DNA from: an uncultured Planctomycetaceae bacterium
Lineage (GTDB): Bacteria > Planctomycetota > Planctomycetia > Planctomycetales > Planctomycetaceae
DNA: 34,340 nt
Reading direction: 5' to 3'
NCBI GenBank assembly: GCA_903858815.1
Contig: CAIOKE010000202.1
Coordinates: forward strand, 1 to 34,340
The stretch's first letter is position 1; each line of letters opens with the position of its first letter. Shown in pieces: positions 5,520-9,746 of this stretch. The notes beneath the pieces are model-generated. The model was given only the letters and a program-made list of their open reading frames with translations, did no database searches and was not told the origin of the DNA. A program made the translations under genes and the position numbers.

Positions 5520-7193
5520 ATGCGTGCTTGGCTGGTGTTGTTGAGTCTGTTTTCGGTGGTGGAGGCGCGTGGAGCGGATGTGGATGTGATGCGTCGTCCG
5601 AATTTTATTTTCATTCTGACGGACGATCAGGGCTGGGGTGACGCGGGGTTTGCCGGTCATCCTTATGTGCGGACTCCGGCGCTGGATCGGTTGAAGCGTG
5701 AGGGGACGTGGCTGCAGCAGTTTTACGTAGCGGCAACAGTGTGTTCGCCCAGTCGTACGGCATTTATGACGGGGCAGTATCCAGCGCGGCATGGGATTCA
5801 CGGGCATTTTTCGACGCCGGAGCAGAATCGGTCGCGGGCGATGCCCAACTGGCTGAATCCTGCGGCTCCGATGCTGCCGCGGCTCCTGCGTGGGGCGGGG
5901 TATGCGACAGCACATTTTGGGAAGTGGCATCTGGGGCATGGTGAGGGGGCTCCGCCGCCGAGTGACTATGGTTTTGATGTTTCGAAAGTGGTCAATGGAA
6001 GTGGTCCGAGGCTCGGGGATGAAAGCGTGGAGTCTTATTTTCGAGCGAAGTCTACGGCGCAGATTATGGACGAGACGATTGCCTTTATTCGGGCGAATCG
6101 GGAGCGTCCGTTTTTTTTGAATGCGTGGACGCTGTTGCCGCATGCGAAGCTGGACCCGACTCCTGAGCAGTTGTCTGAGTATGCGGGGTTGCAGCCGCGG
6201 GCTGACGATCCGGCATTTGGCAGCTGGATGCAGAAGTATCTGGGGCAGGCGAAATCGCTGTCGGATCAGATGCAGGTGTATTGTGCTTCGCTGTCTGATC
6301 TGGACGAGCAGGTGGGGCGTCTGCTGAATGCTTTGGATGAGCTGGGACTGGCTGAGAATACCGTCATTTTTTATTCGAGCGACAATGGTCCTGAGGATTA
6401 CCGGGTGGGGAACGCGGCGAACGCGGGATTGGGCAGTCCTGGTGTGCTGCGGGGGCGGAAACGCAGTATGTATGAGGGCGGAATTCGTACGTTTGGTCTG
6501 GTGCGCTGGCCGGGGCATGTTCCTGCCGGGCGCGTGGATGGTGTCAGTGTGACGGGAGCGGTGGATTTTCTGCCGACTGTGTGTGGTCTGGCTGGGGTGG
6601 AGTTACCGGCGGAGCAGGCAGGTGACGGTGAGGATGTCAGTGACATCTGGCTGGGTGCAGAGCGGGAACGTCGCGAGCCGTTGTACTGGGAGTGGTTGTT
6701 TAGTGTGCAGGGTGCGGCGGATGGGTATCAGCCGCCGCCATTAGCGATGCGTTATGGTGACTGGAAGTTGTTTGCGGACCATCGTGGGGAACGGCTGCAA
6801 TTGTTCAACATTGTGGCTGATCCGTCGGAGCAGCGTGATGTGCTTGCAGAGCAACCTGTGCTGGCAGAGCATCTGAAGAAGCGGCTGCTGTCGTGGTCGA
6901 GCGGATTGCCCGCCAGTGGGGCTCGTGAAAAGCTGCTGGCCGAGGGTTTGGGAGTATCGGGTGCTGCAGCGTCAAAAAAGACGGATGCGAGGTCCGGGCC
7001 AAAGGACATCGCGGGCATTCGAGCGGCCGCCCTGAAGCGTTGGGATACCGATCAGGACGGTGAATTGACATTGGATGAATATCGAACGGGATTGAAGCAG
7101 CCTGACGCTGAGCAGCGATTTCAGCGATTTGATGCGAATGGTGATGGTCGTCTGACGCGTGAGGAGTTTGTGGGTGGCTCCGTCGGCAAATGA
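5520..7193 (+). CDS. Secreted sulfatase with C-terminal EF-hand pair
   Basis: S1-type sulfatase, 557 residues. Signal peptide about 1-18, Asp-Asp at 35-36 in LTDDQGWGD, and the formylglycine site CSPSR starting at C75. GKWHLGHGEG, SSDNGPED and a YEGGIRTFGLVRWPG segment follow. After the catalytic domain (ending about residue 470) comes a tail with two EF-hand loops, DTDQDGELTLDE (about 509) and DANGDGRLTREE (about 538). It may therefore bind calcium in addition to the active-site metal. ATG 5520 is chosen because GGGAG sits 7 bases upstream and the signal peptide starts there; the longer reading to 5436 would translate the tandem repeat. Its stop codon is directly adjacent to the stop of the convergent regulator gene. 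Confidence 0.93.
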   Translation: MRAWLVLLSLFSVVEARGADVDVMRRPNFIFILTDDQGWGDAGFAGHPYVRTPALDRLKREGTWLQQFYVAATVCSPSRTAFMTGQYPARHGIHGHFSTPEQNRSRAMPNWLNPAAPMLPRLLRGAGYATAHFGKWHLGHGEGAPPPSDYGFDVSKVVNGSGPRLGDESVESYFRAKSTAQIMDETIAFIRANRERPFFLNAWTLLPHAKLDPTPEQLSEYAGLQPRADDPAFGSWMQKYLGQAKSLSDQMQVYCASLSDLDEQVGRLLNALDELGLAENTVIFYSSDNGPEDYRVGNAANAGLGSPGVLRGRKRSMYEGGIRTFGLVRWPGHVPAGRVDGVSVTGAVDFLPTVCGLAGVELPAEQAGDGEDVSDIWLGAERERREPLYWEWLFSVQGAADGYQPPPLAMRYGDWKLFADHRGERLQLFNIVADPSEQRDVLAEQPVLAEHLKKRLLSWSSGLPASGAREKLLAEGLGVSGAAASKKTDARSGPKDIAGIRAAALKRWDTDQDGELTLDEYRTGLKQPDAEQRFQRFDANGDGRLTREEFVGGSVGK

Positions 7194-7670
7194 CTACGGT
7201 CGGGCGCACAGTTGCAGCAGTTCGCCAATGGTGCGGTGGGACTCGATGGGATGTCTGAGTGGAACAGCGAGATCGATCGTGTAGCGATTCTGTCGCCCGA
7301 CTCGGGTTCGCTGCAGGATGGTTGCTGTTTCCAGCTCGGCGATGATGTGCTGCACAGCTCGTTCGGTGATTCCGACCTGTCGGGAAACTTCGCGCAGCGT
7401 GATGGCGGGGTTCTGGAAGAGCAGTACGAGGACGTGAGCGTGGTTGGTGAGGAATGTCCAGCGGGGATATTCTGGTGCTGCGGTTGTTGTGGGTGCAATG
7501 GTGGCCGTGGGGTTGACTGCGCTGGTTACCGGGGGTGCGGTTGAGCTTGTGGGGGTGCGATCGGGTGTGCTGAGGGGAGCGCGAGGTGTGGGTTTCTGTG
7601 GCTGGTGGGGCACCGGCGTACCGGTCTTTCTGCGATTTTGGCGAGTGAGCAGGGAACGCCGTTTCTTCAC
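7194..7670 (-). CDS. Winged-helix DNA-binding regulator with Pro/Thr-rich N-terminal extension
   Basis: Probable transcription factor of the ArsR/MarR-like winged-helix group, 158 residues. The DNA-binding domain is at about 70-158. [13 protein letters not shown] begins the first helix, [24 protein letters not shown] is the helix-turn-helix (recognition helix about 102-114), and [10 protein letters not shown] is the wing. Residues 1-16 are very basic and 17-66 are Pro/Thr/Ala-rich and probably disordered, an extension not expected in the usual roughly 100-residue family members. The start is GTG at 7670, with AGGAG 9 bases upstream; the reading frame extends further upstream without a better start. 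It ends exactly against the sulfatase stop (no bases between), so regulation of that sulfatase or its neighbours is plausible but unproven. Confidence 0.78.
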
Positions 7671-7962
7671 GGTGGGAAGCTCCTGAGTGCACAGACAACA
7701 GACGCTGGAGGGGAGGACACTGCAGTACAGGACTCCAGTGTCCCCTGATGCTGTGCAAAACCTGAGCAACTGTCAACTGAAGCGATATAAAACTCGGGCT
7801 GCCGATGTGTCCTGTGGCGTTTGTGTCGTTGGTGGTTCTGGTGTGGTGTTGTTTCACCACGTAGCGCCTCGGAAAGACACGGAAAAGCGCAAGGGGGGGG
7901 GGCATTTTGAACCACGAATGACACGAATGGTGGTTGTGGCGGGGATGTGGGGGCGGACGCCG
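7671..7962. other. Gene-free spacer with decayed dispersed-repeat sequence and a G10 tract
   Basis: No reading frame here looks coding. The spacer has short related motifs, for example accacg...ggaaagacacggaaaag around 7857-7886 and gaaccacgaatgacacgaatgg around 7909-7930. These recall the ACGAAT/ACGAAA-type intergenic repeats common in planctomycete and verrucomicrobial genomes (recalled, not searched). A run of ten G occurs at 7893-7902, a spot prone to slippage or sequencing error. The promoter of the winged-helix gene presumably lies near 7680-7780, but no clear -35/-10 pair was found. Confidence 0.5.
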
Positions 7963-8010
7963 TGATCAGTGATCAGTAATCAGTAATCAGTAATCAGTAA
8001 TCAGTAATCA
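7963..8010. repeat. Heptamer tandem repeat (TRATCAG, 6.9 copies)
   Basis: Two copies of TGATCAG (7963-7976) are followed by four full and one partial copy of TAATCAG (7977-8010), a near-perfect 7-bp tandem array. It stops 20 bp before the stop codon of the carbonic anhydrase gene, between the winged-helix and carbonic anhydrase genes. Its period equals that of the array at 5374-5471, though the unit sequence differs. The array contains overlapping GATC/TGATCA motifs, but no known protein site is implied. Confidence 0.93.
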
Positions 8011-8030: not shown

Positions 8031-8744
8031 TCAGAGTCCGAGTTCGACGGGAGTTACGAGTCCTGTTTTGAGGTCGTAGACACCGCCGGCGATGATCAGT
8101 TCGCCTGTTTTGAGCAGTCGTCCGATGACGGGTGAAGATTCTGCAAGCAGCAGTGCCTGGTTGCGAACATTCTGAGTCACAGCGGCGGCGAGGTCGGGTT
8201 GATTTCTGATGGCCGGTCGGATGTATTGGAACAGTCCGCTGATCTGGCCGGGGACTTCATCGCCTTTGATGGTCGCGTGGACAGCTCCGCATTGTGTGTG
8301 TCCGAGGACATACAGGACTTTTGCGCCGAGGATGCGGGTGCCGAATTCGAGGCTGCCGATATTTTCACTGCAGGCCACATTTCCGGCGATGCGTGTGACG
8401 AACAGATCTCCGAAGCCCTGATCGAAGACGATTTCAATGGGGACTCGGGAGTCAGCGCAGCCAAGGAAGGCGGCGAAGGGCTTCTGCCCTTCTGCCAACT
8501 CCTGAACTCGCTTCATATCCCGATGTTCGGCCAGCGGTTTTCCGGTTGCAAAGCGCTGATTGCCGTCGTACAGCTTTTTGAGGGCATCGGATGGGGCGAT
8601 GTCGGGGGCGGAAGCTGGAGAAGCGGCGGAGGCAGCCGCCTGATGTCGGAGCCAGCCGGTGGCGGCGCAGTTGGCGGCGGCGAGGCCCTGTCCGAGGAAC
8701 GCCCGTCGGCCGTGTGTGTAGTGTTGTGTGATTCGGGGGCACAG
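8031..8744 (-). CDS. Beta-carbonic anhydrase with Tat signal; no canonical start codon
   Basis: Interconverts CO2 and bicarbonate. Read from the only near-usual start (CTG at 8744) it has 237 residues. A Tat-type signal follows: RR at 13-14 in GRRAFLGQGL, then an Ala-rich hydrophobic stretch. The helix DALKKLYDGNQRF leads into the catalytic domain. Zinc ligands are C96 (in CADSR), H149 and C152 (in GHTQCGA), with the Asp98/Arg100 dyad, typical of beta-class enzymes. Between the TGA of the upstream transporter (8754-8756, same frame) and the RR pair there is no ATG, GTG or TTG. The first ATG (8516) would delete the signal and conserved N-terminal helix. GTGA, overlapping the transporter stop, lies 9 bases before the CTG and may serve as SD. 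The Tat signal suggests action outside the cytoplasm. Confidence 0.85.
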   Translation of the reverse strand: MCPRITQHYTHGRRAFLGQGLAAANCAATGWLRHQAAASAASPASAPDIAPSDALKKLYDGNQRFATGKPLAEHRDMKRVQELAEGQKPFAAFLGCADSRVPIEIVFDQGFGDLFVTRIAGNVACSENIGSLEFGTRILGAKVLYVLGHTQCGAVHATIKGDEVPGQISGLFQYIRPAIRNQPDLAAAVTQNVRNQALLLAESSPVIGRLLKTGELIIAGGVYDLKTGLVTPVELGL

Positions 8745-8753
8745 GACTGGTTT

Positions 8754-9746
8754 TCACTGACAGAAGAATTGTGCGAAGCGGTAGTAGAGAGGAATTCCGG
8801 CGATGAGGTTGAAGGGGAATGTGATGGCGAGTGCTGAGGTCAGGTAGTAGGTGGGGTTTGCTTCGGGCAGTGCCATCCGCACGGCAGGTGGAGCGGCGAT
8901 GTATGAGGCGCTGGCTGCCATTGTGGCCAGCATGGTTGTGCCACCGACGCTGAGTCCGGAGGCAGCGCCAAGCCATGCTCCGAGCAGTCCGTGGAGGACG
9001 GGCATCAGGATGCCGAAGGCTGCAAGGAACAGTCCGCTGGTGCGGAGATCCTGCAGGCGGGCGCCGGCAGTGAGTCCCATTTCGAGCAGGAAGAGTGTGA
9101 GCAGACCTTTGAACAGGCCCTCAAAGACCGGCTGCACGGGTTTCCAGCCGTCTGTTCCGACTGCGGCTCCGATCAGCAGGCCTCCCACCAGCAGCAGCGT
9201 GGAGGGAGCGCAGACGAGTTCGTGGCAGACGGAGAGGAGTCGGGCGGCGGGGGACTGGTCGGCAGCTTGATCGGAATGCTGGCGAGCCATCTGGAAGGCT
9301 CCTATGGCCAGTGCCATCTGAATACCGGGGATTTCGAGGAGTGTGAGCAGTGTGGGCATAAAACCTTCGGCTGGTATTCCGGCCGAGTTTGTGAATTGTT
9401 GTGCAGCGATAAAGGTCACGGCAGAGACGGAGCCGTAGTGTGCGGCGATGCCGGCGGCGTCGGGCACGCTGAATCTGCCAAGGCGTCGTAGTACGAGGTA
9501 TGCGGAGACGGGAGTGAGACAGCCCAATAGGAGTGTGGCGGCGGCGGGTGCGGCAAGTTGAGTGAGCGAGCTGTGTGAAAGTTCGACGCCGCCTTTCAGG
9601 CCGAGGGCGAACAGCAGGTAGATGGAGAGCGAGGTATAGAGTTCGCGAGGCAGGCTGAGCTGACTGCGAATAACGCGGGCGAACAATCCGAGTGCGAAGC
9701 AGAGTGTGAGTGGGGAGACCAGATTCAACCGCAGCACGTCAAGCAT
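8754..9746 (-). CDS. Sodium-dependent bicarbonate transporter, SbtA family
   Basis: Integral membrane protein of 330 residues with about ten hydrophobic segments and the characteristic SbtA (formerly DUF897) motifs: ALGLKGGVELS, AAHYGSVSAVTF in the first half, and AASASYIAAPPAVRMALPEA plus ALAITFPFNLIAGIPLYY near the C-terminus. Known members import bicarbonate with sodium in cyanobacteria; the same substrate is likely here. The ATG has AAAGG about 6 bases upstream. The carbonic anhydrase follows in the same frame, with only 9 bases between this stop codon and the putative CTG start, so the two are almost certainly one transcript. Together they form an inorganic-carbon uptake/interconversion module. 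No SbtB-like PII gene is seen nearby. Confidence 0.88.
   Translation of the reverse strand: MLDVLRLNLVSPLTLCFALGLFARVIRSQLSLPRELYTSLSIYLLFALGLKGGVELSHSSLTQLAAPAAATLLLGCLTPVSAYLVLRRLGRFSVPDAAGIAAHYGSVSAVTFIAAQQFTNSAGIPAEGFMPTLLTLLEIPGIQMALAIGAFQMARQHSDQAADQSPAARLLSVCHELVCAPSTLLLVGGLLIGAAVGTDGWKPVQPVFEGLFKGLLTLFLLEMGLTAGARLQDLRTSGLFLAAFGILMPVLHGLLGAWLGAASGLSVGGTTMLATMAASASYIAAPPAVRMALPEANPTYYLTSALAITFPFNLIAGIPLYYRFAQFFCQ

Follow-up and report, generated by a model that had tools for sequence, protein, structure and literature searches.

The assembled genome of an uncultured planctomycete shows a carbonic anhydrase gene without an ordinary start codon behind a bicarbonate transporter gene

How is a conserved gene translated when no usual start codon precedes it? 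The question was raised by the window, the whole stretch of 34,340 nucleotides analyzed here from an uncultured Planctomycetaceae bacterium, where a minus-strand frame of 240 open codons extends between the TGA at 8754-8756 and the stop at 8031-8033. A sequence-only reading had described this frame as a Tat-type beta-carbonic anhydrase (CA) lacking a usual start, and its coordinates for the frame, the TGA, the twin arginine (RR), a CTG, an ATC and the ATG at 8516 were all confirmed. Neither ATG, GTG nor TTG occurs in the 15 codons separating the TGA from the RR at 8703-8708. Two GTGs that were absent from that reading (8755-8757 and 8740-8742) share a common frame, which is shifted by one base against that of the CA. 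By hand arithmetic, 15 codons would lack the three starts by chance about half of the time ((61/64)^15 = 0.49), so the start-free stretch means little by itself. The oddity, as judged from the compared sequences, is that a conserved gene has no start when 29 of 31 loci with the same arrangement possess one.

The gene pair and its products

The features of the locus are collected in Table 1. The identification of the frame as a beta-CA was supported by a match to PF00484 (E 1.1e-30) covering positions 1-156 of the 156 of the profile. Against the subfamily model NF011765 (PRK15219) the protein scored 148.1 bits, below the curated cut-off of 221 bits. The residues C84, D86, R88, H137 and C140, which we take to be the catalytic residues of beta-CAs (zinc ligands C-H-C and a D-R dyad), did not vary among nine aligned sequences. 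The best structural matches were 1ym3/2a5v (E 3.9e-31), and the match to these solved enzymes covers residues 34-217, beginning past the Tat signal region. The RR is followed by a hydrophobic stretch, in orthologs too, and the protein is thus a predicted Tat substrate; the RR was also present in the genus relatives G003, G004, G010, G011, G012 and G017, and some orthologs had no called RR. A second beta-CA, with 45% identity, is encoded elsewhere in the same genome (G000:C36).

Table 1. Positions of the features at and around the junction of the two genes.
Feature	Position	Strand	Remark
Open frame, Tat-type beta-carbonic anhydrase (CA)	8031..8753	-	without canonical start ahead of RR; PF00484
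CA stop codon	8031-8033	-	
SbtA-type sodium-dependent bicarbonate transporter, 330 aa	8754..9746	-	TGA 8754-8756; PF05982 E 7e-111
GTG of the GTGA overlap with the SbtA stop	8755..8757	-	misses the CA frame by one base
CTGTG motif	8740..8744	-	near-cognate in-frame CTG 8742-8744 and out-of-frame GTG 8740-8742
Run of five C immediately 3' of GTG	8735..8739	-	candidate spot for a one-base slip or error
ATC in the CA frame	8730..8732	-	start candidate, weaker
Shortened junction, first base of SbtA stop to RR, 48 nt	8709..8756	-	
Twin arginine of the Tat signal (G-RR-AFLG)	8703..8708	-	RR also in genus relatives
Span of C84, D86, R88, H137, C140 (RR-based numbering)	8289..8459	-	invariant in nine aligned sequences
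Tandem repeat, 7 bp, 6.6 copies, 97% matches	7965..8010	.	directly past the CA stop

The gene upstream encodes an SbtA-type transporter, whose match to PF05982 was full-length (1-308 of 308) and whose sole structural relative found was Slr1512/SbtA (7cye, E 3.4e-33). In cyanobacteria, SbtA is part of the CO2-concentrating mechanism. The window protein resembles the cyanobacterial Slr1512 in its full-length PF05982 match and differs in that it belongs to a planctomycete and is paired with a putatively exported CA. A description of such a pair in planctomycetes was not found among the titles of the literature on SbtA and CA, which is weak evidence.

The junction in other planctomycetes and in the genus

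A scan of genome collections, of which the best 80 of 279 loci were used and which possibly left out records very near the window, gave 83 distinct CA loci when taken together with 14 further regions and the window itself. The loci L001-L049 stand outside this count, and those bearing a CA were inspected separately. A locus was considered linked when SbtA was encoded on the same strand no more than 1500 nt upstream. By this definition, SbtA was directly upstream of the CA in 31 loci, window included, within the best 80 of 279; in 28 of these 31 (window counted) the CA identity was at least 57%, and the other three were more distant. A canonical in-frame start, placed ahead of the RR or of the start of the aligned part and checked by eye, was present in 29 of the 31 (best 80 of 279), the exceptions being the window and L090. 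The latter (LR594584.1, Gemmataceae CJuql4) has an ATG and a proper Tat motif, both in a frame other than that of the CA, with the break inside the signal peptide. L083, counted among the 29, carries an in-frame TAG past the RR. Two further rows that appeared to lack a start, L115 and L134, were discarded as wrong RR calls; both have ATGs a short way downstream in the frame of the CA.

Clusters of SbtA, SbtB and a Tat-type beta-CA, found in planctomycetes and Gemmatimonadota, show the same order of SbtA followed by the anhydrase as the window; in some of those clusters SbtB is placed between the two, and the window differs in having neither SbtB at this place nor the start. SbtB (P-II, PF00543) separated sbtA from the CA gene in 13 of the 31 loci (best 80 of 279), examples of such an intervening P-II-like gene being L053, L054, L058, L062 and L069. 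In the window, G003, G004, G011 and G012 the CA gene follows sbtA with no SbtB in between, and a search of G000 (the genome of the window) and of these four relatives found no close SbtB; in four of the five, matches of 25-30% were detected inside larger frames. A loss of sbtB may be what placed the CA gene close behind sbtA, where translational coupling could replace a Shine-Dalgarno (SD) sequence. As separate observations, G000 has a P-II-like stretch (G000:C319:4619-4897) with 30% identity to SbtB within a larger frame, and P-II-like stretches lie within frames of 593-718 aa in several members of the genus.

The genus was searched in 18 genomes, the own genome G000 included, and near-full-length close orthologs of the CA (identity of at least 68%) were detected in G000, G003, G004, G010, G011 and G017. 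The nearest relative by SbtA was G012 (88%) and the nearest by CA was G003 (83%). In both, an ATG is placed 60 nt ahead of the RR, at 30 nt (G012) and 47 nt (G003) counted from the initial base of the SbtA stop. The spacing between that base and the RR is 48 nt in the window, while G012 has 90 nt and G003 has 107 nt; the window junction is therefore shorter by a net 42 nt and 59 nt, respectively. The net length difference is certain for these sequences, and the breakpoints are ambiguous. A deletion inside the SbtA of G003, which had seemed real and in frame, was dropped when it proved to be a contig end, with residues 1-279 on another contig.

The junctions of G012 and G003 aligned strongly with each other, with a score of 84 (shuffle mean 26; none of 500 shuffles as high), and their ATG was conserved. 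The window junction aligned weakly to each of them (p 0.01 in both cases, 500 shuffles). In a pair-HMM analysis with four parameter sets and the two relatives, the bases of the relatives' ATG were unpaired in the window with a posterior of 0.38-0.83; the posterior for pairing of GTG 8740-8742 with the relatives' ATG was 0.13-0.33 for G003 and under 0.02 for G012, and the best window partner of the G012 ATG was a CCG six bases past this GTG (0.11-0.55). MAFFT with the three sequences placed the missing block, ATG included, in one gap of 59 columns, and a pairwise aligner scattered the gaps. Since these placements disagree, only net lengths are claimed here. The sequence-only reading had proposed that an ATG or GTG at the same position in relatives would speak against an unusual start. 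This is largely borne out by the ATG of G012 and G003, 60 nt ahead of the RR in a stretch that is shortened in the window, although the exact counterpart of this ATG is ambiguous in the alignments; GTG 8740-8742 is one candidate.

The CA gene has not fared equally throughout the genus. In G012 (L055, G012:C87, 4243-4756), a draft assembly, it is broken, with a frame break near residue 75 and homology lost past residue ~158-165, about the last 30% of the gene; in the remaining pieces 4 of the 60 invariant columns covered were changed. In G014, with a listed completeness of 100%, SbtA is present and a close CA ortholog was not found. Because of these two genomes, the CA looks dispensable in the genus. 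Separately, G015 (L152, G015:C97) has an SbtA match over residues 94-329 with an internal TAA, and a close CA ortholog was not found there.

Selection on the carbonic anhydrase

The coding region of the window CA is intact and under purifying selection. Compared with the CA of G003, dN was 0.12 and dS 1.08 (dN/dS 0.11), with a ratio of 0.07 for the mature part and of 0.43 for the signal part (38 codons). In 14 outgroup orthologs, 82 columns were invariant; the window differed at one of them, a difference common to G003, and G003 at two. The changes that could be assigned to the window and to G003 numbered 3 and 5 with unanimous genus outgroups, and 9 and 15 when G004 was the outgroup. Hence, no decay of the CA body was found by dN/dS or at the invariant columns, and changes were not in excess on the window side. 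The gene is not a pseudogene by these measures, although they would miss a loss that is very recent. An old loss of the start, without substitute, would be expected to leave decay; the junction change is therefore young, bypassed or not real.

Explanations of the altered junction

The reading that we favor, with a probability of roughly 40%, is that this is an ordinary sbtA-CA pair whose junction was recently altered in this one lineage. The ancestral arrangement would have been that of the nearest relatives, with an exported CA starting at an ATG shortly past the SbtA stop. A stretch shorter by 42 to 59 nt, with the remaining GTGs one base off, would have deprived the CA of its normal start. 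Either the change would be young or some CA protein would still be made, because the CA body is intact. Any residual CA would most likely come from ribosomes that finish SbtA and, infrequently, reinitiate at the CUG within CUGUG (8740-8744); the SD-like GTGA upstream of this CUG looked weak by eye. That the altered junction exists in the DNA, that it arose recently and that the CUG would be the route to any residual CA are our inferences. Counting against this explanation, the window CA, which bears no signs of decay, may be fully functional through some different start, or the sequence itself may be in error. The change was seen in one genome, either as an indel of recent origin or as an error of one base in an assembly of 373 contigs. 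A laboratory precedent for such a start loss is the frame-shifted lambda cI gene, which kept its function in E. coli, an outcome that its authors credited to a non-natural start codon (PMC6397469), and termination-reinitiation at start-stop overlaps has been discussed (PMC9841429). If the junction is real, a natural loss of a start codon would have been caught ahead of decay of the coding region, in a genus whose species differ in having this gene intact, having it broken or having none that was found, and how far near-cognate reinitiation can keep a gene alive would become testable.

An error of sequence or assembly, rightly listed among the options of the sequence-only reading, is the strongest of the rivals and only somewhat less likely than the favored reading. 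If the true junction differed by one base, the GTG of the GTGA overlap or GTG 8740-8742 would be an ordinary in-frame start. Both GTGs lie in one frame, a single base off that of an intact CA, and a run of five C is situated between GTG and RR. The overlap with the SbtA stop has the GTGA form that is usual for coupled starts; start-stop overlaps of the AUGA/GUGA type are described in PMC9841429. The genome is assembled in 373 contigs, and L090 is similar, with its ATG and CA in different frames and the break within the signal peptide. On the other hand, a five-C run is probably short for a typical homopolymer error, and the domain matches of the other window genes each lie in one frame, which is not a test of every gene. 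A Cys ahead of the RR is absent from the GTG frame and present in five of six genus relatives (a count that uses the upstream ATG of G017, behind GAGGAG). Codon usage favored none of the three junction frames, whose scores were all negative (-2.7 to -5.5); the scan, based on 170,196 bases of the own genome (the window and 20 stretches), chose antisense frames at the CA locus and is not relied on. At least 30 coding-like codons ahead of the first start were found in 2 of its 82 chosen frames, both in L175. Were an error the cause, a start missing from one assembly would be a reason to check relatives first.

A CUG start at 8742-8744 that is stable and functional, that depends on the termination of SbtA through coupling, is sensitive to IF3 and yields less CA than SbtA, is a clearly more doubtful explanation. 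Initiation in E. coli at AUGUG and GUGUG sites in two overlapping frames has been reported (PMC9841429); CUG and CUGUG are absent from the main text of that report. The CTG would give a Cys directly after the start and 12 residues in all ahead of the RR, and Met-Cys begins the signal peptide in 8 of the 64 orthologs with a called RR and start (L070, L075, L079, L082, L091, L092, L097 and L102), with the RR 10-15 residues on; a few RR calls in this set are doubtful. This match is post hoc, and at the nearest ATG of the six genus relatives none has Cys in position 2. The lack of decay in the CA agrees with a working CUG, and the own genome encodes IF3, whose gene infC (L184, G000:C331) probably starts at an ATT behind GGAGG, its first ATG being 16 codons on. 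An ATT start of infC is likewise known from E. coli, and infC (ATT/ATC) and sigR (GTC) are reported as bacterial genes with non-canonical starts (PMC5472188). The window gene is like these in having no ATG, GTG or TTG at the right place; it differs in that they are characterized genes, while its CTG is a candidate start common to no relative. No examined relative relies on CTG, and the overlapping GTG, as the better start, would be a competitor in the wrong frame.

The CTG start offered by the sequence-only reading is thus possible in this lineage at low probability, and was discarded as a conserved family feature by the survey of relatives: 29 of 31 loci (best 80 of 279) have ATG, GTG or TTG in frame and L090 an ATG out of frame. 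Equally doubtful is the specific sequence of events in which an indel took the ATG of the coupled gene and the CUG overlapping an out-of-frame GUG (CUGUG) now starts the CA. If so, each ribosome terminating on SbtA would pick either a dead-end frame or an exported CA, and the site would represent a natural, recently evolved non-canonical start with a low CA:SbtA ratio and a response to IF3.

Initiation at GTG followed by +1 slippage at CCC-C (GTG CCC CCG) into the CA frame is improbable. The geometry fits exactly, and CCC-C beside a start codon is described as prone to +1 shifts when the tRNA lacks m1G37; such shifts are reported to be rare with normal m1G37 (PMC6335274), and conservation of the site was not seen. 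Still less credible is a start at ATG 8516, the first in the CA frame, giving a cytoplasmic protein of 161 aa. This ATG is residue 65 counting from the RR, and starting there would cost the Tat signal and 10 residues (P39 to D64) that are invariant in the nine-sequence alignment, window included; the starts of relatives lie far upstream. It was ruled out by these residues, as the sequence-only reading had anticipated. Readthrough of the UGA into an SbtA-CA fusion, also proposed there, can practically be dismissed: the CA lies in the SbtA frame with no second stop, but none of the 31 SbtA-linked loci (best 80 of 279) is fused, the distance, taken modulo 3, is not constant (0 for the window and for G012; 2 for G003, G004 and G011) and an internal Tat signal would presumably be useless. 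Altogether, the observation and the error option of that reading held up, and its exotic options received little support, with an ordinary start in 29 of 31 loci (best 80 of 279).

Two minor observations were made around these genes. Met-Cys was considered as a start rule for the family and dropped at 8 of 64; several other orthologs carry Cys and His ahead of the RR, possibly a metal-binding start. Downstream of the CA, the frame at 6805-7905 (minus strand) had no Pfam match, and weak, partly stop-broken matches to it were present in 5 of the 17 other genomes of the genus.
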